Assembly: GCA_020027965.1 (NCBI GenBank)
Contig: JAHRHE010000024.1
Coordinates: 1-42,759, forward strand
Reading direction: 5' to 3'
Source: Nitrospirota bacterium
Lineage (GTDB): Bacteria > Nitrospirota > Nitrospiria > Nitrospirales > Nitrospiraceae
DNA length: 42,759 nt
Shown here: in pieces, positions 11,434-26,202 of the stretch
Position numbering within the stretch: position 1 is the first letter of the stretch
Layout of the letters: each line of letters begins with the position of its first letter
Translations under genes and position numbers: made by a program
Notes under the pieces: generated by a model
What the model saw: only the letters and a program-made list of their open reading frames with translations
Databases searched by the model: none
What the model was told of the DNA's origin: nothing

Positions 11434-12930
11434 TCAGCCGCCGAATGGGAGGATGGCGGGAGGCATCGAGGCGGCGGGACCGGGCAAGTTGGAGAACATG
11501 AGCGTGGCAGCGACCACCCAGTCGATGAAGGGCTGCGGGTAGATGCCAAGGACCAAGGTGCCGGCGAGGCCGGCATATACTACCGCCTTCATGGGCGCAG
11601 AGATCCTGAGCGGAGAAGGATCCGCCGGCTCGTTGATGTACATCTTTTTGACCACGACCAGGTAATAATACATCGAGATGACGATGTTGATCAGCCCGAC
11701 GACGATCAGCGTGTACAAGCCTTCGTTGATCGCGGCCAGGAAGATGTACAGCTTCCCGATGAACCCGGCCAGCGGGGGAACGCCGGCCAGGGAGAGGAGA
11801 AAGACCAGCATCGCGAAGGCCATGAACGGCGACCGCCGGTTCAGGCCGTTGTAGTCCTCGATCTCATCGCTGTTGATCAGGTTGCCCACGGCGACGACAA
11901 TCGCAAAGGCGCCTAGGTTCGAGAAGAGATAGGTCAGCAGGTAGAACAGGATGGCGTCACTGCCCATCTTGGTGCCGGCGGCCAGCCCGATCAGGATGTT
12001 GCCGATCTGCGCGATCCCCGAGTAGGCCAGCAGGCGCTTGATGTTGCGTTGTGCGATCGCCACGATGTTCCCGTAGGTCATGGAGAGGATCGAGGCGAAG
12101 ACCAGCAGCAGCGCCCAAACCGGCTTGAGCGTCGCTAACGAGACGAAGAGCATCCGAAGCAGGATCGCGAAGGCGGCGCCCTTGGGGGCGATGGACAGAA
12201 ACGCCGTGACCGGCGTGGGCGCGCCATGGTACGTATCCGGGATCCAGGAATGAAACGGGACCGCGCCGATCTTGAAGCCGAGCGCCGCAAAGATGAGCAG
12301 GTAGCCGATGATCAGGCCGGGCGTCGGCTCGGCCCGGGCAAGGTCCGAGAACACCAGCTTGCCCGTCTCGCCGAAGACCAGGCTGATGCCATAGGCCAGC
12401 AACCCGGCCGCAAAGACACCCAGAATGAAGAACTTGAGCCCGGCTTCATTCGAGGCCACATCGTCACGCAGGTAGGCGACCAGGACGTAGAACCCAAACG
12501 TGGAGAACTCCAGCGTGATGAAGACCGAGAGGAGGTCATTGGCCGAGGCCATGAACATCATGCCGAGAGCCGACATTAAGACCAGGAAGTAGTACTCGCC
12601 TCTGAAGAAGCGGAAGCGGCGGACATAGTCCATCGAGACGAGGATCACCAGCAACGTCGCCCCCACGATGAAAATTTTGAAGAACAGCGCCATCCGATCC
12701 ACGACGAACATGTGGGCAAACAGAGTGCCCGTGATCCCCTCCAGCTCGAACCAGACGAGCGTGGCCAGCACGACTCCCAGGCCTCCCACGCTCAGATAAG
12801 CCAGCCGATCCTTCGGGAGTCGCGGCATCACGAAGTCCACGGTGAGCACCACGCACAGCCAGGCGGTCAACACCATCTCCGGCAGCAGGAGCAAAAGATC
12901 CGATCCCGACAGGGTTAAATTGAACGTCAT
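11434..12930 (-). CDS. nuoN: NADH-quinone oxidoreductase subunit N
   Basis: A 498-residue membrane antiporter-like subunit of complex I with about 14 helices. The key charged residues of the proton path are present: Glu141 in FITLEFSTFGFY, Lys220 in ALGFKIGAVPFHSW, Lys250 in FLSIAPKGAAFA and a TM12 lysine in GFIGKLYIFLAAI. It is the last nuo gene of the operon. Its ATG overlaps the stop of the second nuoM by 4 bases (ATGA), implying translational coupling. Confidence 0.96.
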   Translation of the reverse strand: MTFNLTLSGSDLLLLLPEMVLTAWLCVVLTVDFVMPRLPKDRLAYLSVGGLGVVLATLVWFELEGITGTLFAHMFVVDRMALFFKIFIVGATLLVILVSMDYVRRFRFFRGEYYFLVLMSALGMMFMASANDLLSVFITLEFSTFGFYVLVAYLRDDVASNEAGLKFFILGVFAAGLLAYGISLVFGETGKLVFSDLARAEPTPGLIIGYLLIFAALGFKIGAVPFHSWIPDTYHGAPTPVTAFLSIAPKGAAFAILLRMLFVSLATLKPVWALLLVFASILSMTYGNIVAIAQRNIKRLLAYSGIAQIGNILIGLAAGTKMGSDAILFYLLTYLFSNLGAFAIVVAVGNLINSDEIEDYNGLNRRSPFMAFAMLVFLLSLAGVPPLAGFIGKLYIFLAAINEGLYTLIVVGLINIVISMYYYLVVVKKMYINEPADPSPLRISAPMKAVVYAGLAGTLVLGIYPQPFIDWVVAATLMFSNLPGPAASMPPAILPFGG

Positions 12931-14759
12931 TCTTCTCCTCGTAAGGCGTCAGGCGTCAGGCGTGAGGCGTCAGAGGTGAGACGCGGGGTGCCAGGCATGA
13001 TCGGTTGGGCCTTCGCTTCGCGCCGCTCGGGAGAGCTCGCCGCAGGCCTCACGCCTCGAGCCTCTTGCTGCCCTGACGGCTGACCGCCCCGCGACTCTGC
13101 TCGGGGCCCTGAGCCTGTCCCTCGACTTTGCTCGGGACGGTGAGCCTGTCGAACCGTCGAAGGGCTGACCGCTGACCGCCGCTCGGCCGCCAGCGGCACG
13201 ACCTGAGTAATCCGGGAGATCAGCGGATCCACCCCCGACCGGATGACATCGTAGAAATGGCCGGGGAAGATGCCGAACGCAATGCTGCAACCGATCATGA
13301 GCAACAACGGCAGCCGATCCACCACGGTCACGGCGTCGTGGGCATGGCTGTACTTGGCTTCCATCGAGCCGTAGAAGACCCCGCGCATCATCCGGAAGAG
13401 ATAGGCGAGGGTCAACACGATCCCGATCACGGCGACGATGACCTGGAACGGGTACTTGTTCCAGCTCCCGACCAGGATCATGATTTCGGCGATGAAATTG
13501 ACCGTGCCAGGCATGCCGACGGAGGCCATGCAGGCGACGAGAAAACAGGCTGCCACGAAGGGCATTCGGTTCACGAGCCCGCCCAGGGAGGGGATCTCGC
13601 GCGTGTGCGTCTGGTCGTACACCCAGCCCGCCATGGCAAACAGCATCCCCGTGGCCAGCGCGTGCGCGAACATGTACAGCACGGCCCCTGTCAGGCTGAT
13701 GTAGTCCAGGGCCGCCATGCCCAGGAAGACGTATCCCATATGGCTGGAGCTCGAATATCCGATAACGTACTTGGTATCCTTCGCGTAGAACGCCACCAGC
13801 CCGCCGTACAGGATGCTGAAGATGCACAGCACCGCCGCGATCGGCATCAGCTCGCGCGTGGTCTCGGGAAGGATCTCAAAGCCCACGCGGATGATCGAGA
13901 AATGGCCCAGCTTCATCAAGACGCCGGCATGCAGCATGCTGGTGGCAGCCGGTGCCGCGGCGTGCCCCACCGGCGACCAGGAGTGCAGGGGCCAGATCGG
14001 CGCGATCGAGGCGAAGCCGATGAAGATCAGCAGCCAGATGATCGTGGCCAGGGACCCGGAGAATTTGGCCTGCTCGCGCAGCACCAGGATATCGAAGGTA
14101 TGGAGGCCCGAGAACTTGTAGATCAACAAGATCCCCATCAGCGCGACAACCGCCCCGACCGAGAGGAACAGGGTCAGTTTCATCGCCGCATACTCTTTGC
14201 TGTTCGAGGCGAAATTGAGAATGAACCCGACCGAGTCCCGCTTCTTGAGTCCTTCCGGATCGGTCATGTCCAGGTAGCCCTTGGTATGGCTGCCCCAGAC
14301 CCCCAGCAGCAGATACATCGGAATCACCGACATTTCGTAGAAGAAGTACAGGAAGAACAGATCCAGCGACATGTAGACGCCGATGGTGGCGGCGGCCAGG
14401 ATCAGCAGGAAGATGTAAAACTCTTTGGTCCGGTCCTTGATGTGCCAAGAGATGAAGATTCCCGCGAACAGCAGGATCGAGGAGGCCAGCACGAGAGGCG
14501 TCCCGATTCCATCCACGCCCAGATAGAAGGCGATGCCCAGCTCCCTAGACCATTCAAAACGCTGGACGAACTGGAATCCGCCCCGGGCAGGGTCATACGC
14601 GAAGAACAGGTAGAAGGAGCCCAGCAGCGACACCCCGGCCGACGCGGCGGCGATCAGGCGAACCTGCAACGCCTGCCGGTTCGACACGAACAGCAGGGCC
14701 ACCGCTCCCACGAACGGGGCGAACAGAATATAGAGGAGGGTGTAGTCGCTCATCGACAT
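12927..14759 (-). CDS. nuoM: Second NuoM-type antiporter subunit, with repeat-encoded tail
   Basis: A 610-residue NuoM-family subunit, the additional pump of a 2M-type complex I. Glu142 (TM5), Lys283 (TM8) and Glu425 (TM12) are in place. The TM7 position that is Lys234 in E. coli NuoM is Ile252 here (GFASIAPIWPLHSW), and the nearby PDAH motif reads PVGH. A loop of about 25 extra residues (about 157-188) follows TM5. Residues 529-610 are not NuoM-like: they are a Pro/Arg/Ser-rich tail encoded by repeat DNA (12930-13175), yet the ATGA overlap with nuoN is kept. The start may be 14759 or the ATG two codons later; only AGG precedes the first. Confidence 0.92.
   Translation of the reverse strand: MSMSDYTLLYILFAPFVGAVALLFVSNRQALQVRLIAAASAGVSLLGSFYLFFAYDPARGGFQFVQRFEWSRELGIAFYLGVDGIGTPLVLASSILLFAGIFISWHIKDRTKEFYIFLLILAAATIGVYMSLDLFFLYFFYEMSVIPMYLLLGVWGSHTKGYLDMTDPEGLKKRDSVGFILNFASNSKEYAAMKLTLFLSVGAVVALMGILLIYKFSGLHTFDILVLREQAKFSGSLATIIWLLIFIGFASIAPIWPLHSWSPVGHAAAPAATSMLHAGVLMKLGHFSIIRVGFEILPETTRELMPIAAVLCIFSILYGGLVAFYAKDTKYVIGYSSSSHMGYVFLGMAALDYISLTGAVLYMFAHALATGMLFAMAGWVYDQTHTREIPSLGGLVNRMPFVAACFLVACMASVGMPGTVNFIAEIMILVGSWNKYPFQVIVAVIGIVLTLAYLFRMMRGVFYGSMEAKYSHAHDAVTVVDRLPLLLMIGCSIAFGIFPGHFYDVIRSGVDPLISRITQVVPLAAERRSAVSPSTVRQAHRPEQSRGTGSGPRAESRGGQPSGQQEARGVRPAASSPERREAKAQPIMPGTPRLTSDASRLTPDALRGEE
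12938..13190. repeat. Repeat DNA forming the 3' end of the second nuoM
   Basis: 12938-12985 is a degenerate array of GGCGTCA(G)-like heptamers, and CCTCACGCCTCG near 13047 is a partial inverted match to it. From about 13105, CTCGACTTTGCTCGGGACGG and GTGAGCCTGTCGAA are of the GTCGAG-type repeat family seen at 14765, 18859 and 32925. It is translated as the tail of the second NuoM. Confidence 0.65.
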
Positions 14760-14934: not shown

Positions 14935-16494
14935 TCACTCGTGTGGCGTCGTGGCCGAAACCTGGGCGGTCGCCATCTGGCCATGTTCTAATCGATCCAC
15001 TAACGCCTGCACCGAGCCGTTCATGATCCGCAGAAACGGAGCCGGGTAGAGCCCGATCCAGAAGATCATGACTGAGAGTGAGACCGCGATGAGCTTCTCA
15101 CGCGCGTTGAGGTCCTGGATCGTCTGAGTGAGCCCCTGCGCGAGCGGCCCGAACATCGCACGTTCGTAATACCAGAGGAAGTAGGCGGCGCCCAAGATCA
15201 CTCCGGTGACCCCAACCACGCCGTAAACCCAGTAGGCGCTGAACGCACCCAGCAGGACCAGGAACTCGCCGACGAACCCGTTGGTGCCCGGCAACCCGAT
15301 CGAAGCTAATCCAATGATCAGCAGGAAGGTGGCCAGCACCGGCACTTTTCTCGCGAGCCCGCCGAAGGCCGAGAGCTGGGTACTGTGCCGTCGCACGTAC
15401 AGGAATCCGGCCAGGAAGAACAGCCCGGCCGTGGTGAAACCAAGATTCACCATCGTAAGCAGACCGCCTTGCAGCCCCTGATAGTTGAGCGCGAACAGCC
15501 CCAGGAGCACAAAGCCGAGGTGGCTGATACTGCTGAACGCGAGGAGCCGGCGCAAATCCGGCTGGATGAGGGCCACAATGGCCCCGTACAGAATCGCGGC
15601 CAGGGCCAATCCCATCACGACCGTCACCACGCTCTGGCTCTTTGACGCCTCGGGCAGCAGCGGGAGGCTGAACCGCATGAACCCGTACGTGCCGAGCTTG
15701 ATGCCCGCCAGGATCACCGCCATGCCGATCGGGCCCTCTATGAGCGCGTCAGGCAACCAGGTGTGGAACGGGAAGATTGGGGCCTTGAACGCCAAGCCCA
15801 TGAACATCAGCCAAAAGATCAGGACCTGTCGCTCGGCCGGGATCGGGGTGGTCAGGAGTTGCAGAAAATCAAAGGAATAGATTGGTTCCACGTGATGGGT
15901 GACGGCCCAGTCGTGGTAGTTCAGGTTCAACAGCACGATGCCGACCAGCATGAAGACGCTGCCCAGCAGCGTGTAGAGCACGTACTTGAGCGCGGCGTAC
16001 TGGCGTTCCACCCCGCCGCCCCAGAGCTTGATCAGGAAATAACTCGGGATCAGCATCAGCTCCCAGAACACGAAGAACACAATCAGATCGATGCTGATAA
16101 AGATGCCAACGGTGGCGGTCTCGAGCGCCAGCAACGCAATGAAGTACTCTTTGATCTGGTAGCGAACGGTGTCCCAGGAATAGAGGATCACCAGCGTCGT
16201 CAGGAACGCGGTGAGGGGCACAAAGAGCACGCTGATGCCATCCACCGCCAGGTGATAGCTGATGCCGAGCGGGGGAATCCAGGGTACCTGCTCGGAGAAC
16301 TGCATCGCCGCCGAATCAGGCACAAATCGAGTCAGCAGGACACCGGTCAGGATCAATTCCAGCACCGAGATGCCCAGCGCGGCGTTCTTGACCAGGTCCT
16401 CCTCCTCCAGGGCCCAGAGTACGAGCGCACCGGCGAGGGGAAGAAACAGGATCAGCGACAGAATGGGAAATCCGAAGCTCAGTTCTTGCAGCAT
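14935..16494 (-). CDS. nuoM: NADH-quinone oxidoreductase subunit M (canonical copy)
   Basis: A 519-residue NuoM with the usual length and charged residues: Glu145 in FWELMLIP (TM5), Lys237 in GLAFKAPIFPFHTW (TM7), Lys266 in AGIKLGTYGF (TM8) and Glu410 in GFVGEFLVLLG (TM12). It is a proton-pumping membrane subunit of complex I. It starts 55 bases after the nuoL stop and is followed, after a 175-base repeat spacer, by a divergent second NuoM. Comparing the two copies shows this one is the standard form. Confidence 0.96.
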   Translation of the reverse strand: MLQELSFGFPILSLILFLPLAGALVLWALEEEDLVKNAALGISVLELILTGVLLTRFVPDSAAMQFSEQVPWIPPLGISYHLAVDGISVLFVPLTAFLTTLVILYSWDTVRYQIKEYFIALLALETATVGIFISIDLIVFFVFWELMLIPSYFLIKLWGGGVERQYAALKYVLYTLLGSVFMLVGIVLLNLNYHDWAVTHHVEPIYSFDFLQLLTTPIPAERQVLIFWLMFMGLAFKAPIFPFHTWLPDALIEGPIGMAVILAGIKLGTYGFMRFSLPLLPEASKSQSVVTVVMGLALAAILYGAIVALIQPDLRRLLAFSSISHLGFVLLGLFALNYQGLQGGLLTMVNLGFTTAGLFFLAGFLYVRRHSTQLSAFGGLARKVPVLATFLLIIGLASIGLPGTNGFVGEFLVLLGAFSAYWVYGVVGVTGVILGAAYFLWYYERAMFGPLAQGLTQTIQDLNAREKLIAVSLSVMIFWIGLYPAPFLRIMNGSVQALVDRLEHGQMATAQVSATTPHE

Positions 16495-18548: not shown

Positions 18549-18851
18549 TCACCACTTCAAGAGATTCATCTCGTCGACGTTCGTGGAGATCTTCCCGCGG
18601 AAGACCACGATGATAATGGCCAACCCGACGGCCGCCTCCCCCGCCGCAATGGCAATGACGAACAGGGCCACGACCTGACCGGCCATGGAGTGGAGGTAAT
18701 GCGAAAATGCCACCAGGTTGATGTTCGCCGCGTTCAACATGATCTCGATCGCCATCAGCACGATGATGAAGTTCCGGCGGATCAACACACCGATCAGGCC
18801 CGTCATGAACAGGATCGCGCTGACCGTGACGTATGCGTTGAGTGGCACCAT
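18549..18851 (-). CDS. nuoK: NADH-quinone oxidoreductase subunit K
   Basis: A 100-residue three-helix membrane subunit. The hallmark glutamates lie in LMAIEIMLNAANIN and AIAAGEAAVGLAI, followed by the short charged C-terminus. Length and motifs are those of NuoK. There is no recognisable Shine-Dalgarno: repeat DNA begins only 7 bases upstream of the ATG, reading GTCACCCGTCAC on the coding strand. The 301-base gap to nuoJ is unusual because J and K are normally adjacent. Confidence 0.96.
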   Translation of the reverse strand: MVPLNAYVTVSAILFMTGLIGVLIRRNFIIVLMAIEIMLNAANINLVAFSHYLHSMAGQVVALFVIAIAAGEAAVGLAIIIVVFRGKISTNVDEMNLLKW

Positions 18852-19152: not shown

Positions 19153-19680
19153 TCACGCGTCACCTCCTTCTGAGTCCGCCGCTGTCGGCGTTTTGGCCAG
19201 CACGATTGCCCCGATGATCGCCCCGAGCAAGAACACGCCGACGATCTCGAAGGGGAGCAGGTAGTCGCTGAATATCTTGATGCCCACGGCGTAGGTGCCG
19301 CCGTGGCTGAGCACCGCCTCCGGCGGCGCGTCGCCCTTCGTACCGAGGAAGGGGGACCGCAGCATGAGCGCCACCAGATAGATGCCGCCGATCACCGCCG
19401 GGATCAGAAATACGGGGTACCGGTCATGCAGGTAGCGCTCGTCGGTCTTCAGATTCAGGAGCATGAGCACGAACAGGTACAGGACCAGGATGGCGCCGGC
19501 ATAGACGATGATCTGAACGGCGAAGAGGAATTCGGCATTGAGGAGCACGAATAGGCCAGCCACGTGGAGGAGCAGGGTCAGCAGCGCGACCCCGCAGTGG
19601 ACGGGGTGTTTCAGCGCAACGGTGAGCACCCCCGCTACGACGCTCACGAGCGAGAAATACGCGAAGAGGGTTAGAACCAT
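19153..19680 (-). CDS. nuoJ: NADH-quinone oxidoreductase subunit J
   Basis: A 175-residue membrane subunit of complex I with five hydrophobic helices. The typical core FAVQIIVYAGAILVLYLFVLM lies at about residues 53-73, including the conserved glycine-containing helix TM3 that forms a pi-bulge in NuoJ. A hydrophilic loop (ERYLHDRYPVF) and a last helix (FEIVGVFLLGAIIGAIVL) follow. It begins 6 bases after the nuoI stop. Its own stop is followed by the repeat spacer before nuoK. Confidence 0.95.
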   Translation of the reverse strand: MVLTLFAYFSLVSVVAGVLTVALKHPVHCGVALLTLLLHVAGLFVLLNAEFLFAVQIIVYAGAILVLYLFVLMLLNLKTDERYLHDRYPVFLIPAVIGGIYLVALMLRSPFLGTKGDAPPEAVLSHGGTYAVGIKIFSDYLLPFEIVGVFLLGAIIGAIVLAKTPTAADSEGGDA

Positions 19681-19686
19681 GAGGCC

Positions 19687-20253
19687 TTACGCTTTAGGCT
19701 TGAGCACCGACTCGGGAAAGAAATAGCGGTAGTCGCGGCTCTGTTGATCATCCTTTTCCTGATTATGGGCATACAGATATTTTTTTGCGTCTTCGAGATG
19801 GCGCTCACCGATCTCGTAGAGCCGCTTCTTGTCGAACAGGAGGGCGCGTTTGTCGTGGGTGGAGTATTCGTACAGCTTGGTCATGGCCAAGGCATTCACG
19901 GGGCACGCTTCGACGCAATACCCGCAGAAGACGCACTTGGTGATGTCGATGTAGAACTCGCTGGCATAGCGCGAGAGGGGAAGGGTCTTGTCCTCGGCAC
20001 TGACGACCTTGATACAGTGGGACGGACAGGCGACTTCGCACAGATCGCACCCCACACACCGCTCGGCGCCATCGTCGTATCGCAGTAACCCGAGCGCTCC
20101 GCGATGGGTGTCCGGGAGCGTCCGTTGCTCGCGCGGATATTGGAACGTGATGGGGCGATGAAACATGTGCTTGAACGTCACTTTCATGGCGTCCCAGATC
20201 TCATAGAACAGCGCCGCTCGCAACAGCTTGTTGATCATGGCGCCGACGTTCAT
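19687..20253 (-). CDS. nuoI: NADH-quinone oxidoreductase subunit I (two 4Fe-4S clusters)
   Basis: A 188-residue ferredoxin-like subunit carrying clusters N6a and N6b. Two full motifs are present: Cys66-x2-Cys69-x2-Cys72-x3-Cys76 (CVGCDLCEVACP) and Cys107-x2-Cys110-x2-Cys113-x3-Cys117 (CVFCGYCVEACP). I chose the ATG at 20253 because GGAGAG lies 6 bases upstream; a TTG four codons earlier is the alternative. In most complex I operons nuoH precedes nuoI. Here nuoG does, with only 23 bases between them. Confidence 0.95.
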   Translation of the reverse strand: MNVGAMINKLLRAALFYEIWDAMKVTFKHMFHRPITFQYPREQRTLPDTHRGALGLLRYDDGAERCVGCDLCEVACPSHCIKVVSAEDKTLPLSRYASEFYIDITKCVFCGYCVEACPVNALAMTKLYEYSTHDKRALLFDKKRLYEIGERHLEDAKKYLYAHNQEKDDQQSRDYRYFFPESVLKPKA

Positions 20254-20276
20254 TTCACTCTCCAATGAAGGCTCAG

Positions 20277-22979
20277 CTAGATTTTCTCGATCGTCACTCG
20301 GGCAAACTTAAACGACGGGACGCTGGTATCGGGATCAATCTCCAGCGGCATCAGATCCTTGACCGGCGGCTCGTTAAAATGTTCCGGAAAGAAGCAGGAG
20401 CCCGGCCGCAGGGTGAGATCAGGCTGCACAGCCAACTCCACCGACCCCTTGGCCGATGTCACCCGGACTCTGGCCTCCTCCGCCAACCCCATGCGCGTCA
20501 TGTCCTCCACGTTCATGGAGAGCCGCCCGGTGTTCGGCGCGATCTTGATGAGGCCGGAAGCCTGGGTAGACAGCTTGCCCGAATGATAGAGGAGCTGCCC
20601 CATGGTCAAGGCGAATGGCCACCGGGCGTGCTCCTCGCCCGCGCGTGTGGCGGCGCCCCGGTAGCGGCTCCCGACAGAGGCAGCATACCCATTGGACAGG
20701 TAGGCATCCGGTCTCGGCGAAAGCTTCTTGGGCTGTCCGAGATTGTAATAGCCGGGCAGCAGCTTCATGATCTCGTTCTGAATGTCCTGGGGCGACTCGT
20801 ATTCCGGCGCGTACCCCAGCCCGTTGGCGATGGCCGTCATGATGTGCCAGTCGGGGAGGCTCTCGCCGATCGGCTCCATGGCCTGGCGGAGGCGAAGGAC
20901 TTTGCCCTCCAGGTTGGTGATCGTCCCGTCCTTTTCGGCGTAGGTGCAGGCCGGCAGGACGACATGCGCCAGTCGGGCGGTCTCGGTGAGAAAGGGGTCC
21001 TGGCAGACCAGCAGTTCCAACCGCTCGAGAGCGGCCTTCACCTCAGCGGAGGCGGGCAACGTCGCGAGCGGATTCTCACCGACGACGTAGAGGGCTTTGA
21101 TCTCTCCACTCCGGCAGCGCCTGAGAATCTCCGGCAGCGTGGCACCCTTCCCCATCGGCGGCAACTCGGCCCCCCAGGCCTTGGCGAACTTGTCGCGGGC
21201 CACAGGGTCATCGAAGCGGGCCTGGCCGGGCAGAAATTCCGGCGCTGCACCCATGTCCACCGCCCCCTGCTCGTTCGGCTCTTCGGTGACCGTGTTCACC
21301 CCGCAGCCCGGCCGGCCCAGCTTGCCGGTGATCCAGGCGAGATCGATGAGGGAGAGGACCTGCCGGTAGCCACCGGGGCGGCGAACCACGCCCTCACCGC
21401 AGAGAATGATCGCGCGCGGGGCTTCCGCGAAGACCGCTGCGACTTCATGGATCTGGTCCACCGGCACGCCGGTCCCGGCGGCCACCGCCTCCAGTGAGAC
21501 CCCGGCTGCCGCGTGCTTCAGCGCGGCGAAGGCCTCCGGATGTCGGCCGGTCGCCTCTGCATCAATCAGGTCCTGCTCGATGACGGATTTCACGAGACCC
21601 TGGAGAAACAACCCTTCGCTGCCCGGGGTCACCATCATCGGATGCGACGCGAGGGCGGCGATCCTGGTCTGCACGGAGTCCACGACGATCACCTGGGACT
21701 TGTAGACTCGGATCGCTTCCTTCACGCGAACGGCGGTCAAGGGATTGGTCTCGGTGATGTCGGTCCCCACGAGCAGGATTGCCTTCGCCTTGGTGATGTC
21801 CTCCCAGTCGTTGGTCATCCGACCGACGCCCAGCGCCTCCCGGACCGCATGGACGAAGTTGAGGTGTCCATAACGGGCACTGCTGTCCAATTGGTTGGTC
21901 CCGATCGCCGCCCGCATGAGCTTCTGGAATAGATAGAGCTCCTCGTTGCTGCATCGGGCCGTGATCAGTCCGGCGATCGCCTGGGGGCCATGCGCGGCCT
22001 TGATTGAGGCGAGGCGGTCCACGACGGTGTGCATGACCTCCAGCCAGGGCGTCTCGACCAGTGTGCCGTTTCGCCGCGCCAGTGGCTGAAGGAGGCGGTT
22101 CTTGCTGTCGATGTACTGGAACCCGAACCGGCCGCGGACGCAGATCCCGCCGTGGCCCTTCGCGGTCTCGGAACGGTCACCCCACTTGTTCTTCCACGAC
22201 AGCGGGGACGTCACGCGGACCACCTCGCTATCCTTGGTCTCGATGGACATCTGGCAACCGTCGCCGCAGTAATTGCAGGTCGTGGTCGTCTTCTTCAACT
22301 GCCACGGCTTATACAAGTACTTGGAGTACTTGTTCGTGATGGCGCCGACCGGGCACACCGCCAGGCAGTCGCCGCAGAACTCGCAGGACAGCGGGAGATC
22401 CCCTTTTGCGACCACCTGGGTGAAGCCACCCTTCTTCACGAACTGCAGGGCGTCGATCATCAACACGTCTTTACAGACGTTGATGCACTCACCGCACGCG
22501 ATGCACCGGTTCATGTTAAAGTCCAGCACCAGGCTGCGGGTATCTTCGGGAATCAGCTTCTGCTTGGCATTGGCCAGGTTGGTGACCTGATGCTGGAACG
22601 CCATGTCCTGCAATTCGCAATGGCCGTCCGCGTCGCAGACGGGACAGTCCAGCGGGTGGACGGACAGATGTTTCTCCACCGCCTTCTTTCTGGCCTGGAA
22701 CAGATCGTCGCCCTCCGTGCGCACCACCAGACCCGCCGTCGCTTTGGCCGTGCAGGCGCGGACGGGGGCCTTCTTCCCCTCCACCATGACCAGGCACATC
22801 CCACAGGAGCCGAACGGGTCGAAGGTGTAGTGGTAGCACATCGCCGCGACGATCTTGCCCGTGCTAGAGATCACGTCGTACAGCGATACGCCGTCCTTCG
22901 CCGTCACGGGTCGCCCGTCGATGCTGAGCTCGATGGTCGCGGCTTCTGTATCAGGACTGGTTACTGGTTTCAGAGCCAT
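20277..22979 (-). CDS. nuoG: NADH-quinone oxidoreductase subunit G (iron-sulfur / molybdopterin-type)
   Basis: A 900-residue iron-sulfur subunit. A [2Fe-2S] domain holds Cys48, 59, 62 and 76. His104 or His108 and Cys112, 115, 121 form the His-Cys3 site. Then come 4Fe-4S sites at Cys159/162/165/169 and Cys199/202/205/209, and a further site beginning Cys235, 238 and 242 (CNYCGDGC). The rest is a molybdopterin-oxidoreductase fold with a C-terminal dinucleotide-binding-type domain, longer than a minimal NuoG. The two 4Fe-4S sites plus the extra cluster are like formate-dehydrogenase-type partners. nuoE and nuoF, which normally feed it, are not in this cluster. ATG 22979 has GAGGAAG just upstream. 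Confidence 0.94.
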   Translation of the reverse strand: MALKPVTSPDTEAATIELSIDGRPVTAKDGVSLYDVISSTGKIVAAMCYHYTFDPFGSCGMCLVMVEGKKAPVRACTAKATAGLVVRTEGDDLFQARKKAVEKHLSVHPLDCPVCDADGHCELQDMAFQHQVTNLANAKQKLIPEDTRSLVLDFNMNRCIACGECINVCKDVLMIDALQFVKKGGFTQVVAKGDLPLSCEFCGDCLAVCPVGAITNKYSKYLYKPWQLKKTTTTCNYCGDGCQMSIETKDSEVVRVTSPLSWKNKWGDRSETAKGHGGICVRGRFGFQYIDSKNRLLQPLARRNGTLVETPWLEVMHTVVDRLASIKAAHGPQAIAGLITARCSNEELYLFQKLMRAAIGTNQLDSSARYGHLNFVHAVREALGVGRMTNDWEDITKAKAILLVGTDITETNPLTAVRVKEAIRVYKSQVIVVDSVQTRIAALASHPMMVTPGSEGLFLQGLVKSVIEQDLIDAEATGRHPEAFAALKHAAAGVSLEAVAAGTGVPVDQIHEVAAVFAEAPRAIILCGEGVVRRPGGYRQVLSLIDLAWITGKLGRPGCGVNTVTEEPNEQGAVDMGAAPEFLPGQARFDDPVARDKFAKAWGAELPPMGKGATLPEILRRCRSGEIKALYVVGENPLATLPASAEVKAALERLELLVCQDPFLTETARLAHVVLPACTYAEKDGTITNLEGKVLRLRQAMEPIGESLPDWHIMTAIANGLGYAPEYESPQDIQNEIMKLLPGYYNLGQPKKLSPRPDAYLSNGYAASVGSRYRGAATRAGEEHARWPFALTMGQLLYHSGKLSTQASGLIKIAPNTGRLSMNVEDMTRMGLAEEARVRVTSAKGSVELAVQPDLTLRPGSCFFPEHFNEPPVKDLMPLEIDPDTSVPSFKFARVTIEKI

Positions 22980-22995
22980 GGTCTTCCTCAAGAGC

Positions 22996-23078: not shown

Positions 23079-24329
23079 TCAGCGGTCGCACTCCCCCATG
23101 ACGATGTCGTAGGTGCCGAAGATCGTCACCGCGTCCGCGATCATGTAGCCCCGCGCCATATGATCAAACGCCCCCATGTGGATGAACGACGGCGCGCGGA
23201 TCTTCAGCCGGTACGGTTTCCCGCCGCCCGTGCTGACGATATAGAAGCCCAGCTCGCCCTTGTGCGCTTCGGTCCCGCAGTAGATCTCGCCCGGTGGAGC
23301 GTCGAAGCCCTGCGAGAAGAGCTTGAACTGCTGGATCATGGACTCCAAGTTGGTGAAGACCCGATCCTTCGGCGGCAGCGTGACGCTCGGCACGTCCGCC
23401 ATGATCGGGCCTTCCGCCGCCATCTGGTCGAGGCACTGCCGGATGATCTTTACGCTCTCCCGCATCTCCTCGACCCGGATCCAGTACCGGTCGTAGGTAT
23501 CGCCGTTCTTGCCGACGGGGACGCTGAATTCGCATCTGGGATAGGCCCCGTAGGATTCATACTTGCGCAGATCGTAGTCCACCCCGGAGCCGCGCAGCGT
23601 GGGACCGCTGAGCCCGAAGCTCAAGGCGTCCTCCGCCGAGATCACCGCGACGCCCTTGGTCCGGGCGATCCAGATGCGGTTCTTCTCGAGGAAGACCACA
23701 TACTCATCGATCTTGGGCAGGAAGTAGTCCAGAAACCGCCGGAGCTTGTCCAGCAAGGACGGGGTGAAATTGCGCTCCACCCCGCCAATCCGGTACCAGC
23801 TTGTGGTGAGACGGGCACCGCAGAGCTCGTCGAACCAATCGAGCAGGATCTCGCGGTCCCGGAACGTGTAAAAGAAGACGGTCATCGCGCCGATATCCAG
23901 CGCCTGCGTCCCCAGCCAGAATTGATGGCCGATAATCCGCTGGACCTCTGCGACGATCGTGCGCAGGTACTCGGCCCGCTCGGGGACCGTGATGTTCATC
24001 AGCTTTTCGACCGCGCGGCAATAGGCAAAGTTGTTGTACATGGCGCAGACGTAATCAAGGCGATCCGTGTGGGGAATGAACTGGTGGTAGGTGCCGTCTT
24101 CCGCCAGCTTTTCCACTCCACGGTGCAGAAACCCCATCACCGGTGTCGCCTTGACGATCCGTTCGCCTTCCAGCTCGAGAATGACTTTCAAGACTCCATG
24201 GGTGCTCGGGTGCTGGGGCCCCATGTTAAGCAGCAGTTCCTCTGTCCGGAGCGTCGGCAGGTTCGCGCTCTCCGGATGCTCCGGGTCCACCTTATAGACA
24301 GTTGTTCTCTGGTCCTCTAGCTTCGCCAT
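23079..24329 (-). CDS. nuoD: NADH-quinone oxidoreductase subunit D
   Basis: A 416-residue 49-kDa-type subunit that helps form the quinone site. Recognisable segments are LNMGPQHPSTHGVLK, GFLHRGVEKLAE, PHTDRLDYVCAM, GSGVDYDLRK and the C-terminal IADAVTIFGTYDIVMGECDR. The HPSTHG loop near the quinone pocket is intact. The start at ATG 24329 is preceded by GAGAG; a GTG four codons upstream is an alternative. The gene is separate from nuoC, not fused to it. Confidence 0.96.
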   Translation of the reverse strand: MAKLEDQRTTVYKVDPEHPESANLPTLRTEELLLNMGPQHPSTHGVLKVILELEGERIVKATPVMGFLHRGVEKLAEDGTYHQFIPHTDRLDYVCAMYNNFAYCRAVEKLMNITVPERAEYLRTIVAEVQRIIGHQFWLGTQALDIGAMTVFFYTFRDREILLDWFDELCGARLTTSWYRIGGVERNFTPSLLDKLRRFLDYFLPKIDEYVVFLEKNRIWIARTKGVAVISAEDALSFGLSGPTLRGSGVDYDLRKYESYGAYPRCEFSVPVGKNGDTYDRYWIRVEEMRESVKIIRQCLDQMAAEGPIMADVPSVTLPPKDRVFTNLESMIQQFKLFSQGFDAPPGEIYCGTEAHKGELGFYIVSTGGGKPYRLKIRAPSFIHMGAFDHMARGYMIADAVTIFGTYDIVMGECDR

Positions 24330-24403
24330 CGAGACTCTCACGCGTGACCTGTCCCTCGATCCTCCTCGCAGCCCTGAGGTTCTCGAAGGGGGCCCCGTGA
24401 CTC
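24330..24403. repeat. Hairpin/repeat spacer between nuoC and nuoD
   Basis: This short spacer contains TCACGCGTGACC next to nuoD and CCCGTGACTCCCTCAC near nuoC, with GTTCTCGAAGG-type repeat text between. It belongs to the same GTGAC/GTCAC-unit style as the other spacers, although a long stem is not evident. Confidence 0.4.
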
Positions 24404-24405
24404 CC

Positions 24406-24903
24406 TCACGATTGTGCTTCGTTCAGAAATTCAAACGTATCCCGCCAGCCCTTGCCCCGGAGCGGGAAATCCTTCCGGAGTGGATAGCCTTCGTTGTACT
24501 CATCCGGCATCAAAACCCGCCGCAGATCGGGATGGTTGCGGAACCTGATCCCCATCATGTCGTACACTTCACGCTCCATGAAATTGGCCCCCTTCCAGAT
24601 GTCCGTCAAGGAGTCCACCTCGCAATCCGATTCCGGCACGCGAGTCTTGAACCGGACGCGGTGGCGCTTCCGGATCGAATACACCTCGTAAACCACCTCG
24701 AAGCGTTCCTCGTCGTCCGGCCAATCCACGCTGCTCACGTGCACGAGGTAATCACAGTCCATCGCGGGGTCATCCCGGAGGAATCTGGCCACCTCGTGCA
24801 GCGAATCTCGCGTCACAGTGATCGCGAGATCGCCGCGCCATTCCACAGCCTTGACGAAGCCGGTCGGAAACAGTTGCTGAATTCGCTCGGCAATCGGGTG
24901 CAT
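24406..24903 (-). CDS. nuoC: NADH-quinone oxidoreductase subunit C
   Basis: A 165-residue 30-kDa-type subunit on the peripheral arm. Family text includes FLRDDPAMDCDYLVHVSSVDWPDD (two adjacent pieces), ERFEVVYEVYSI, DSLTDIWKGANFMERE and YDMMGIRFRNHPDLRRVLMP, the last being the NuoC signature. The ATG at 24903 (MHPIAERIQQLFP) fits the normal N-terminus. A GTG eight codons upstream would translate repeat DNA. There is no clear Shine-Dalgarno: the coding-strand repeat GTCACCCGTCAC ends 10 bases before the start. Confidence 0.94.
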   Translation of the reverse strand: MHPIAERIQQLFPTGFVKAVEWRGDLAITVTRDSLHEVARFLRDDPAMDCDYLVHVSSVDWPDDEERFEVVYEVYSIRKRHRVRFKTRVPESDCEVDSLTDIWKGANFMEREVYDMMGIRFRNHPDLRRVLMPDEYNEGYPLRKDFPLRGKGWRDTFEFLNEAQS

Positions 24904-24913
24904 TTCAAAATCC

Positions 24914-24990
24914 GTGACGGGTGACACGTGACACGTGACACGACGGAAGCGGACAGCTTGGTTCGACTAGTCTCTTGTTACGCGTCACCT
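24914..24990. repeat. Hairpin spacer of GTGAC units between nuoB and nuoC
   Basis: GTGACGGGTGACACGTGAC and further ACACGTGACAC units (24914-24942) face TTACGCGTCACCTCTCACGC (about 24977-24997) as a loose inverted match across a 35-base loop. It occupies essentially all of the nuoB-nuoC gap. Confidence 0.65.
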
Positions 24991-24991
24991 C

Positions 24992-25507
<516 letters not shown>

Positions 25508-25818: not shown

Positions 25819-26202
25819 CTAATCCCACTCCAGCGCGCCTTTCCGCCAGGCGTAGACGTACGCCACGACGAACAGCCCGATGAACACCAGCATCTCCACT
25901 AGTCCGATCAGACCGATCTTGTCGAACACCACCGCCCAGGGATAGAGAAAGATGATTTCGATGTCGAAAATGACGAACAGCATGGCGAAAATGTAGTACC
26001 GGACCGGGAACGGCATCCGCGCGTCCGAAAACGGCTCACTGCCGCACTCGTACGGACTGAGCTTCTCCGACTCCGGGAACTTGGGTTGCACCAGATAGCT
26101 CAGCAGCAACGTGACGACCCCGAAGGCCAGTGCAATCCCGATGAAGAGCAGAATCGGAAAATAGCGGCTGAGATAGTCCAGCAGGAGGTCAGAACCGCTC
26201 AC
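25819..26202 (-). CDS. nuoA: NADH-quinone oxidoreductase subunit A
   Basis: A 127-residue three-helix membrane subunit, the first gene of the operon. Diagnostic are KLSPYECGSEPFSDARMPF, containing the Cys-Gly-Ser-Glu quinone-site loop, and FDIEIIFLYPWAVVF with its conserved acidic residues. It starts with GTG at 26202, preceded by GAGG. That GTG overlaps the stop of a possible 16-codon leader ORF (GTGA). Confidence 0.95.
   Translation of the reverse strand: MSGSDLLLDYLSRYFPILLFIGIALAFGVVTLLLSYLVQPKFPESEKLSPYECGSEPFSDARMPFPVRYYIFAMLFVIFDIEIIFLYPWAVVFDKIGLIGLVEMLVFIGLFVVAYVYAWRKGALEWD

Follow-up and report, generated by a model that had tools for sequence, protein, structure and literature searches.

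The second NuoM encoded in the window (nuoM2, P0001; 12927..14759, reverse strand; 610 aa) lacks the TM7 lysine of the interfacial glutamate-lysine ion pair, and it belongs to a single clade of NuoM proteins that all lack this lysine. The window is the whole stretch of DNA that was analysed, 42,759 nucleotides of contig JAHRHE010000024.1 from a Nitrospirota bacterium (assembly GCA_020027965.1). As judged from alignments and a tree, the P0001 family is old and widespread; it has a hydrophobic residue in place of the lysine and a new histidine on TM8, and its natural occurrence suggests that this proton pump can work without the textbook switch lysine. Our favoured reading, to which we give a probability of about one half, is that P0001 would represent a separate subfamily of functional, lysine-free NuoM whose ion pair is rewired with the participation of the TM8 histidine.

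The 2M operon and the residues of P0001

The nuo operon lies on the reverse strand and has an extra nuoM inside it, the order around P0001 being L-M1-M2-N in window coordinates. P0001 was identified by its ORF and translation, the NDH_I_M profile (TIGR01972) and Foldseek, and the adjacent nuoN (P0003; 11434..12930) by a profile match. The lysine-bearing nuoM1 (P0002; 14935..16494), which shares the operon with nuoM2, was assigned by NDH_I_M (530 bits) and its tree position. The other genes on this strand were nuoL (P0004; 16550..18547; 665 aa), nuoK (18549..18851; Pfam Oxidored_q2), nuoJ (19153-19680; Oxidored_q3), nuoI (19687-20265; Fer4), a nuoG-like gene (20277..22991; Molybdopterin, Fer2_4 and NADH-G_4Fe-4S_3), nuoD (23079-24341; Complex1_49kDa), nuoC (24406-24927; Complex1_30kDa), nuoB (24992-25507; Oxidored_q6) and nuoA (25819-26202; Oxidored_q4).

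The lateral-helix region of the NuoL encoded in the window is approximately 27 residues longer than that of E. coli NuoL, Moorella NuoL and the second NuoL of its own genome, and this insertion was missing from the NuoL proteins of single-NuoM complexes. The order L-M1-M2-N together with the insertion identified the operon as encoding a 2M complex I of the Nitrospira kind, which has been described before (PMC6606698, PMC9040806, PMC12342949) and whose operon in N. moscoviensis was transcribed above the median (PMC6606698). The order of the subunits within the physical complex would follow the gene order and homology.

P0001 scored 427.3 bits against TIGR01972, above the curated cut-off of 263.8. 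NuoM was also its best profile; the NuoL profile PRK06590 gave only 132 bits against a cut-off of 556, which argues against a NuoL or MrpA type. A Foldseek search with the AlphaFold2 model of P0001 ranked NuoM chains first (TMq 0.86-0.88). The model supported the NuoM fold, with TM7 being weak (pLDDT <50 at residues 257-262).

Alignment with E. coli K-12 NuoM (NC_000913) placed the TM7 motif FASIAP (13998..14015) at FAVKMP, with Ile252 (codon 14004-14006) at the position of Lys234. The TM5 glutamate of the ion pair was kept despite its missing lysine partner (Glu142, codon 14334..14336; E. coli Glu144). The central TM8 lysine (Lys283, codon 13911..13913; E. coli Lys265), the bridging histidine (His340; E. 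coli His322) and the terminal TM12 glutamate (Glu425, codon 13485..13487; E. coli Glu407) were also retained. P0001 therefore carries the NuoM residue set E142, K283, H340 and E425 and has I252 in place of the TM7 lysine of the Glu-Lys pair, for which reason it was filed as a variant NuoM subfamily and not as a canonical NuoM. These assignments agree with the sequence-only reading, which had reported Ile252 at Lys234 and the retention of Glu142, Lys283 and Glu425, and likewise PVGH in place of PDAH (V264 = D246, G265 = A247). Two features were absent from that reading. Ser262 of P0001 stands at the gate leucine, Leu244, of the Leu-Trp-His triad, and a TM4 glutamate found in 69 of 81 lysine-bearing NuoM representatives was present in 0 of 48 lysine-free ones; E. 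coli NuoM has a leucine at this TM4 position.

The canonical copy had been said to keep all residues. P0002 does have Glu145, Lys237, Lys266 and Glu410, but two histidines are gone (L251 = H248 and L351 = H348) and the spacing from Trp246 to Lys266 is two residues short, so the statement was too strong. The description of the missing residue as the lysine of the proton path also needed changing. In the isolated Nqo13 module, the Glu-Lys pair lies approximately 14 Å off the main pathway and modulates the transfer barrier electrostatically, and the main path is Lys235-His292-Glu377, equivalent to E. coli Lys265-His322-Glu407 (PMC11496545). The lysine is thus published as the switch half of an ion pair, off the path, and the main path is intact in P0001 as Lys283-His340-Glu425. 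Loss of the lysine abolished function in the NuoM of both E. coli (PMC3046159) and Paracoccus (PMC9802314), and it is because of these mutants that a natural NuoM without it deserves attention.

Fixation in Nitrospiria and the lysine-free clade

NuoM2 was present in 170 of the 175 genomes of the family, and orthologues with 57-91% identity were spread across the order and reached several further families of its class. A search of the rest of the phylum for NuoM2 gave matches at the level of canonical NuoM only. All 75 M2 rows first examined had Ile252, His277 and Lys283, and column 252 was lysine in 78/78 other NuoM rows. At the DNA level, a motif search produced 120 distinct TM7-TM8 stretches from Nitrospiria; codons 252 and 277 were unconstrained in this search, and Lys283 was part of the pattern, hence the stretches are no evidence for that residue. 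Codon 252 encoded isoleucine in all 120 (95 ATC and 25 ATT) and codon 277 histidine (71 CAC and 49 CAT), so that change at both codons was synonymous only and Ile252 is neither chance nor a sequencing error. The stretch HSWSPVG..AAPA.SM.HAGV..K was near-invariant, as were Ile252 and His277, across the 57-91% identity range. A close relative with the lysine, which would have spoken against the sequence-only reading, was found in 0 of the 75 M2 rows and 0 of the 120 stretches.

The spread of the lysine-free form was surveyed with one genome per species, in Moorella and other genomes, and in the two phyla to which Moorella and one Chloroflexi genome belong; the same residues were found in these other lineages. 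One sequence (L158) with an apparent TM7 deletion was excluded, its reading frame being broken in the contig. A tree of 129 NuoM representatives, filtered at 82% identity, was computed by a quick IQ-TREE search with no bootstrap after removal of the TM7-TM8 columns. One of its branches (SH-aLRT 100) separated all 48 lysine-free rows from the 81 lysine-bearing rows, so that the lysine state changed once on this tree. Within the lysine-free clade, the M2 rows of Nitrospiria (16 rows, SH-aLRT 100), a Bacillota group (19 rows, SH-aLRT 99) and a Chloroflexi group (11 rows, SH-aLRT 99) were recovered; their mutual order was left unsettled and fits one or two origins of 2M complexes. The M1 rows grouped with lysine-bearing NuoM, outside the clade. 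The lysine-free rows had Ile, Leu or Gln at the TM7 lysine position and kept Glu142, His340 and Glu425 in 48/48 and Lys283 in 47/48, and the gate leucine of TM7 was changed to serine in nearly all lysine-free NuoM.

The clade includes the second NuoM of 2M complexes from both Nitrospiria and Chloroflexi, as well as the NuoM that the 11-subunit complexes of Moorella and its relatives have as their only one. The Moorella genome had a single NuoM-like match at E<1e-40, and this was the lysine-free NuoM, placed between NuoL and NuoN in an operon of the order A-B-C-D-I-J-K-L-M-N. In the Moorella-type operons examined, A, B, C, D, I, K, L, M and N were present and J was detected in most; a nuoG-like query was unmatched, and between A-D and I there was no match beyond the gap expected for NuoH. 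The motif in Moorella and related Bacillota was GF..LVP.WP.H.WSPDGH..APTAVSM.HAGV.MKLG, with a variant carrying SPDGY and HAGVLKKIG. The Chloroflexi included L-M-M2-N operons with a lysine-bearing M1 and a lysine-free M2. The lysine-bearing copy came first in 159/159 neighbouring NuoM pairs, which include overlapping loci and are not independent genomes. When plasmids were searched with P0001, most matches were rhizobial, at approximately 31-34% identity, and these were set aside.

The sequence-only reading had stated that the second NuoM lost the lysine. The absence is real and fixed, but the tree, with its single old clade, ruled out that a duplicated gene had lost it recently, and P0001 did not lose the residue as a copy. 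No description of the lysine-free clade was found in the literature searched, which excluded the paper defining 2M complex I, reportedly Chadwick et al. 2018.

The TM8 histidine and the proposed gating of the subunit

His277 (codon 13929..13931) lies on TM8, six residues before Lys283, and aligns with Leu259 of E. coli NuoM and with His254 of E. coli NuoL, the 'histidine switch' position. A histidine was present here in 46/48 lysine-free and 0/81 lysine-bearing representatives and, without dereplication, in 206 of the 208 lysine-free NuoM whose motif could be read and 0 of the 214 lysine-bearing ones. The whole subunit was compared between the 48 and the 81 rows, a gain being an ionisable residue in ≥85% of the lysine-free and ≤15% of the lysine-bearing rows. 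Apart from Y55, where Phe is changed to Tyr, His277 was the sole ionisable gain, and the only ionisable losses were the TM7 lysine and the TM4 glutamate. In simulations, His254 of NuoL switches between a link to Lys342 and the N side and a link to the ion-pair lysine, Lys229 (PMC13358369), and its helix is adjacent to the TM5 glutamate (PMC4938563). This role and this position recommend His277 as a candidate partner of Glu142, and as a concrete candidate for the other residue that the sequence-only reading had allowed for.

In lysine-free NuoM, the ion pair of TM5 glutamate and TM7 lysine at the interface, by which canonical NuoM is gated, would then be rewired. The TM7 lysine has given way to isoleucine or leucine with the TM5 glutamate retained, the surrounding TM6 and TM7 positions (Leu195, Leu199 and Ser262) would be repacked, and the TM8 histidine at the NuoL His254 position would likely be the new titratable partner and may take over the role of the lysine. 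With the core relay intact, the subunit has most likely kept the ability to move or relay a proton, under a different gating, and proton movement through lysine-free NuoM would be expected from its residues. That Glu142, Lys283, His340 and Glu425 hardly vary and that the subunit sits between NuoN and NuoL in Moorella-type operons both point to a working module. In Moorella, coupling to NuoL must pass through a NuoM that is the only one and stands between NuoL and NuoN. A bolder claim, which we hold tentatively and at somewhat less than even odds, is that a widely distributed module of glutamate and TM8 histidine naturally replaces the Glu-Lys switch, that the lysine is dispensable for coupling and that both sampled 2M lineages recruited this module.

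Several observations count against the rewired pair. Two natural sequences, L226 (Gln/Leu) and L188 (Leu/Leu), lack both the lysine and the histidine; L188 is nested in the lysine-free clade and has apparently lost the histidine, and L226 is a deep branch. The lysine mutants of E. coli and Paracoccus were non-functional (PMC3046159, PMC9802314), HycC is a lysine-free relative without a proven pumping role (PMC9474812), and the AlphaFold2 confidence in TM7 of P0001 was low. In addition, the loss of the lysine has a single origin, so its association with the histidine represents one evolutionary event and allows no statistical test of compensation. The sequence-only reading had proposed that a pump of this kind may translocate differently, not at all or by another residue, and sequence cannot separate these.

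The main rival, which we consider less likely than the rewired pair, is that lysine-free NuoM serves as a coupling relay or spacer that passes an electrostatic or conformational signal and translocates no proton itself. The switch lysine reported as essential in the mutants above is missing, and the gate leucine, whose replacement by alanine abolished catalysis in Paracoccus (PMC9802314), is serine here. HycC, which has the same kind of change (Lys to Leu), tolerates E135A and K239A and lacks an evident route to the P side (PMC9474812). However, Lys283, His340, Glu425 and the orphan Glu142 were near-invariant in the 48 rows, and a pure spacer needs none of them. If the relay reading were true, a 2M complex I would translocate 4 and not 5 H+, and a Moorella-type complex 3 and not 4.

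It is improbable that another subunit, such as NuoN, NuoM1 or NuoL, reaches into the interface and provides the charge that is missing. The ion pair does lie at a subunit interface, and the distal lysine of the neighbour is near in published models (PMC9271201). However, comparison of the NuoN and NuoL found beside lysine-free and lysine-bearing NuoM gave no clear intramembrane charge gain. The NuoN match was Lys428 in VVVKKMY, at an apparent helix end, and the NuoL match corresponded to Thr169 in the NuoL of the window. A compensating lysine, which the sequence-only reading had named as a refutation, was thus found neither clade-wide in the subunit nor clearly in NuoN or NuoL. A TM8 lysine at position 282 was rejected as a compensating residue: it was limited to rows with a His266-to-Tyr change and is absent in P0001. 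The two changes co-occurred in 14/14 rows, at three independent places of the tree.

There is very little to recommend the idea that the substitution tunes ion selectivity or direction, through reverse or ferredoxin-linked operation or another cation. For the Nitrospira 2M complex, operation in the direction quinol to ferredoxin has been proposed (PMC6606698), and Moorella-type operons had no nuoG-like match and only the NuoH gap between A-D and I, but the same residues occurred in Chloroflexi of differing lifestyles. Finally, a decaying or assembly-only subunit under relaxed constraint, for which the lysine loss alone speaks, was contradicted by the near-invariance of Ile252, His277 and the TM7-TM8 stretch over 57-91% identity with synonymous codon changes only, by the presence of the gene in 170/175 family genomes and by the clade supplying the sole NuoM of Moorella.

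Implications and comparison with known systems

For complex I, the wave and domino models both take the Glu-Lys ion pair as their central switch. A large natural family without the lysine, with its glutamate partner and the relay kept, offers a ready-made test of coupling models, and Moorella offers a system whose only NuoM is lysine-free. The same family bears on the proton stoichiometry of 2M complex I. The additional proton was asserted in PMC7117926 and hypothesised in PMC9040806, and a measurement of it was not found in the 2M complex I literature searched. The much repeated fifth-proton claim rests on the fourth antiporter-like subunit and is unproven; since that extra subunit was lysine-free in both sampled 2M lineages, the claim should be measured and not assumed.

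Compared with NuoM/ND4/Nqo13 (TIGR01972), P0001 shares the fold, the profile and the equivalents of Glu144, Lys265, His322 and Glu407. It differs from canonical NuoM in having no TM7 lysine, a TM8 histidine, serine for Leu244 and no TM4 glutamate, and lysine-free NuoM of Nitrospiria has an insert in the TM5-TM6 loop as well. With the known 2M complex I, the window shares the order L-M1-M2-N and the lateral-helix insert of NuoL. In the consulted sections of PMC7117926, PMC9040806 and PMC6606698, M2 is presented as a fourth pump that contributes one more proton, and its missing lysine is not mentioned; this analysis adds that NuoM2 falls into one clade with the NuoM that Moorella-type complexes have as their only one.

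HycC of the E. coli formate hydrogenlyase has Leu208 at the TM7 lysine position and keeps the TM5 glutamate, Glu135 (PMC9474812, PMC5061711), with which our alignment agreed, so that lysine loss has a precedent in the superfamily. HycC belongs to another enzyme and differs from P0001 in having Phe233 or Ser234 at the TM8 histidine position; His222 on its TM7b has been proposed as a stand-in switch (PMC13358369). The closest counterpart of the histidine itself is the switch of NuoL and MrpA (NuoL His254, B. subtilis MrpA His221), P0001 His277 being aligned with NuoL His254. NuoL and MrpA, unlike P0001, retain the TM7 lysine too, and P0001 retains the TM8 lysine of NuoM where NuoL has Thr260.

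Residues of TM7b and TM8 in the lysine-free NuoM

Within the clade of NuoM proteins without the TM7 Lys (E. coli NuoM Lys234), the changes His266 to Tyr and Met282 to Lys (numbering of NuoM2, the lysine-free second NuoM of the window) invariably co-occurred and arose 3 independent times. Because the two changes are coupled in this repeated manner, a contact between TM7b and TM8 at positions 266 and 282 is suggested. Two lysine-free proteins were without the TM8 His (His277), namely the deep-branching L226:1465-3024 (Gln/Leu) and L188:1510-2964 (Leu/Leu), a second copy in genome G463, and these relatives are natural test cases of whether the TM8 His is needed. In a Chloroflexi lysine-free NuoM (L240:1492-3024), the TM8 Lys was shifted by one position, with Lys at 282 and Ala at 283.

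The C-terminal tail of NuoM2

The final ~85 residues of NuoM2 (window ~12930-13185) formed a low-complexity, Ser/Arg/Pro-rich tail. Alignments of relatives to NuoM2 mostly stopped near residue 525-565 and part of the tail stretch was matched elsewhere in the genome (C227 and C177). The tail has the look of a dispersed repeat that became part of the reading frame.

The MrpD-like subunit and NuoM1

Manganitrophus and its relatives have a five-pump complex whose second subunit is MrpD-like (L059:10645-12639, L149:3703-5574 and L173:5704-7179). Like the lysine-free NuoM, this subunit has lost the TM7 Lys, which is replaced by Asn (GFLVNAAVPPLHAW), and it was without a TM8 His at the NuoL position.

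Judged by its sequence, NuoM1 of the 2M operon is, like NuoM2, unusual. Alignment of the window's NuoM1 (14935-16494) with E. coli NuoM showed a Trp246-Lys266 spacing 2 residues shorter and Leu at both the His248 and His348 positions of the E. coli protein, a pattern shared by most Nitrospiria NuoM1 representatives.
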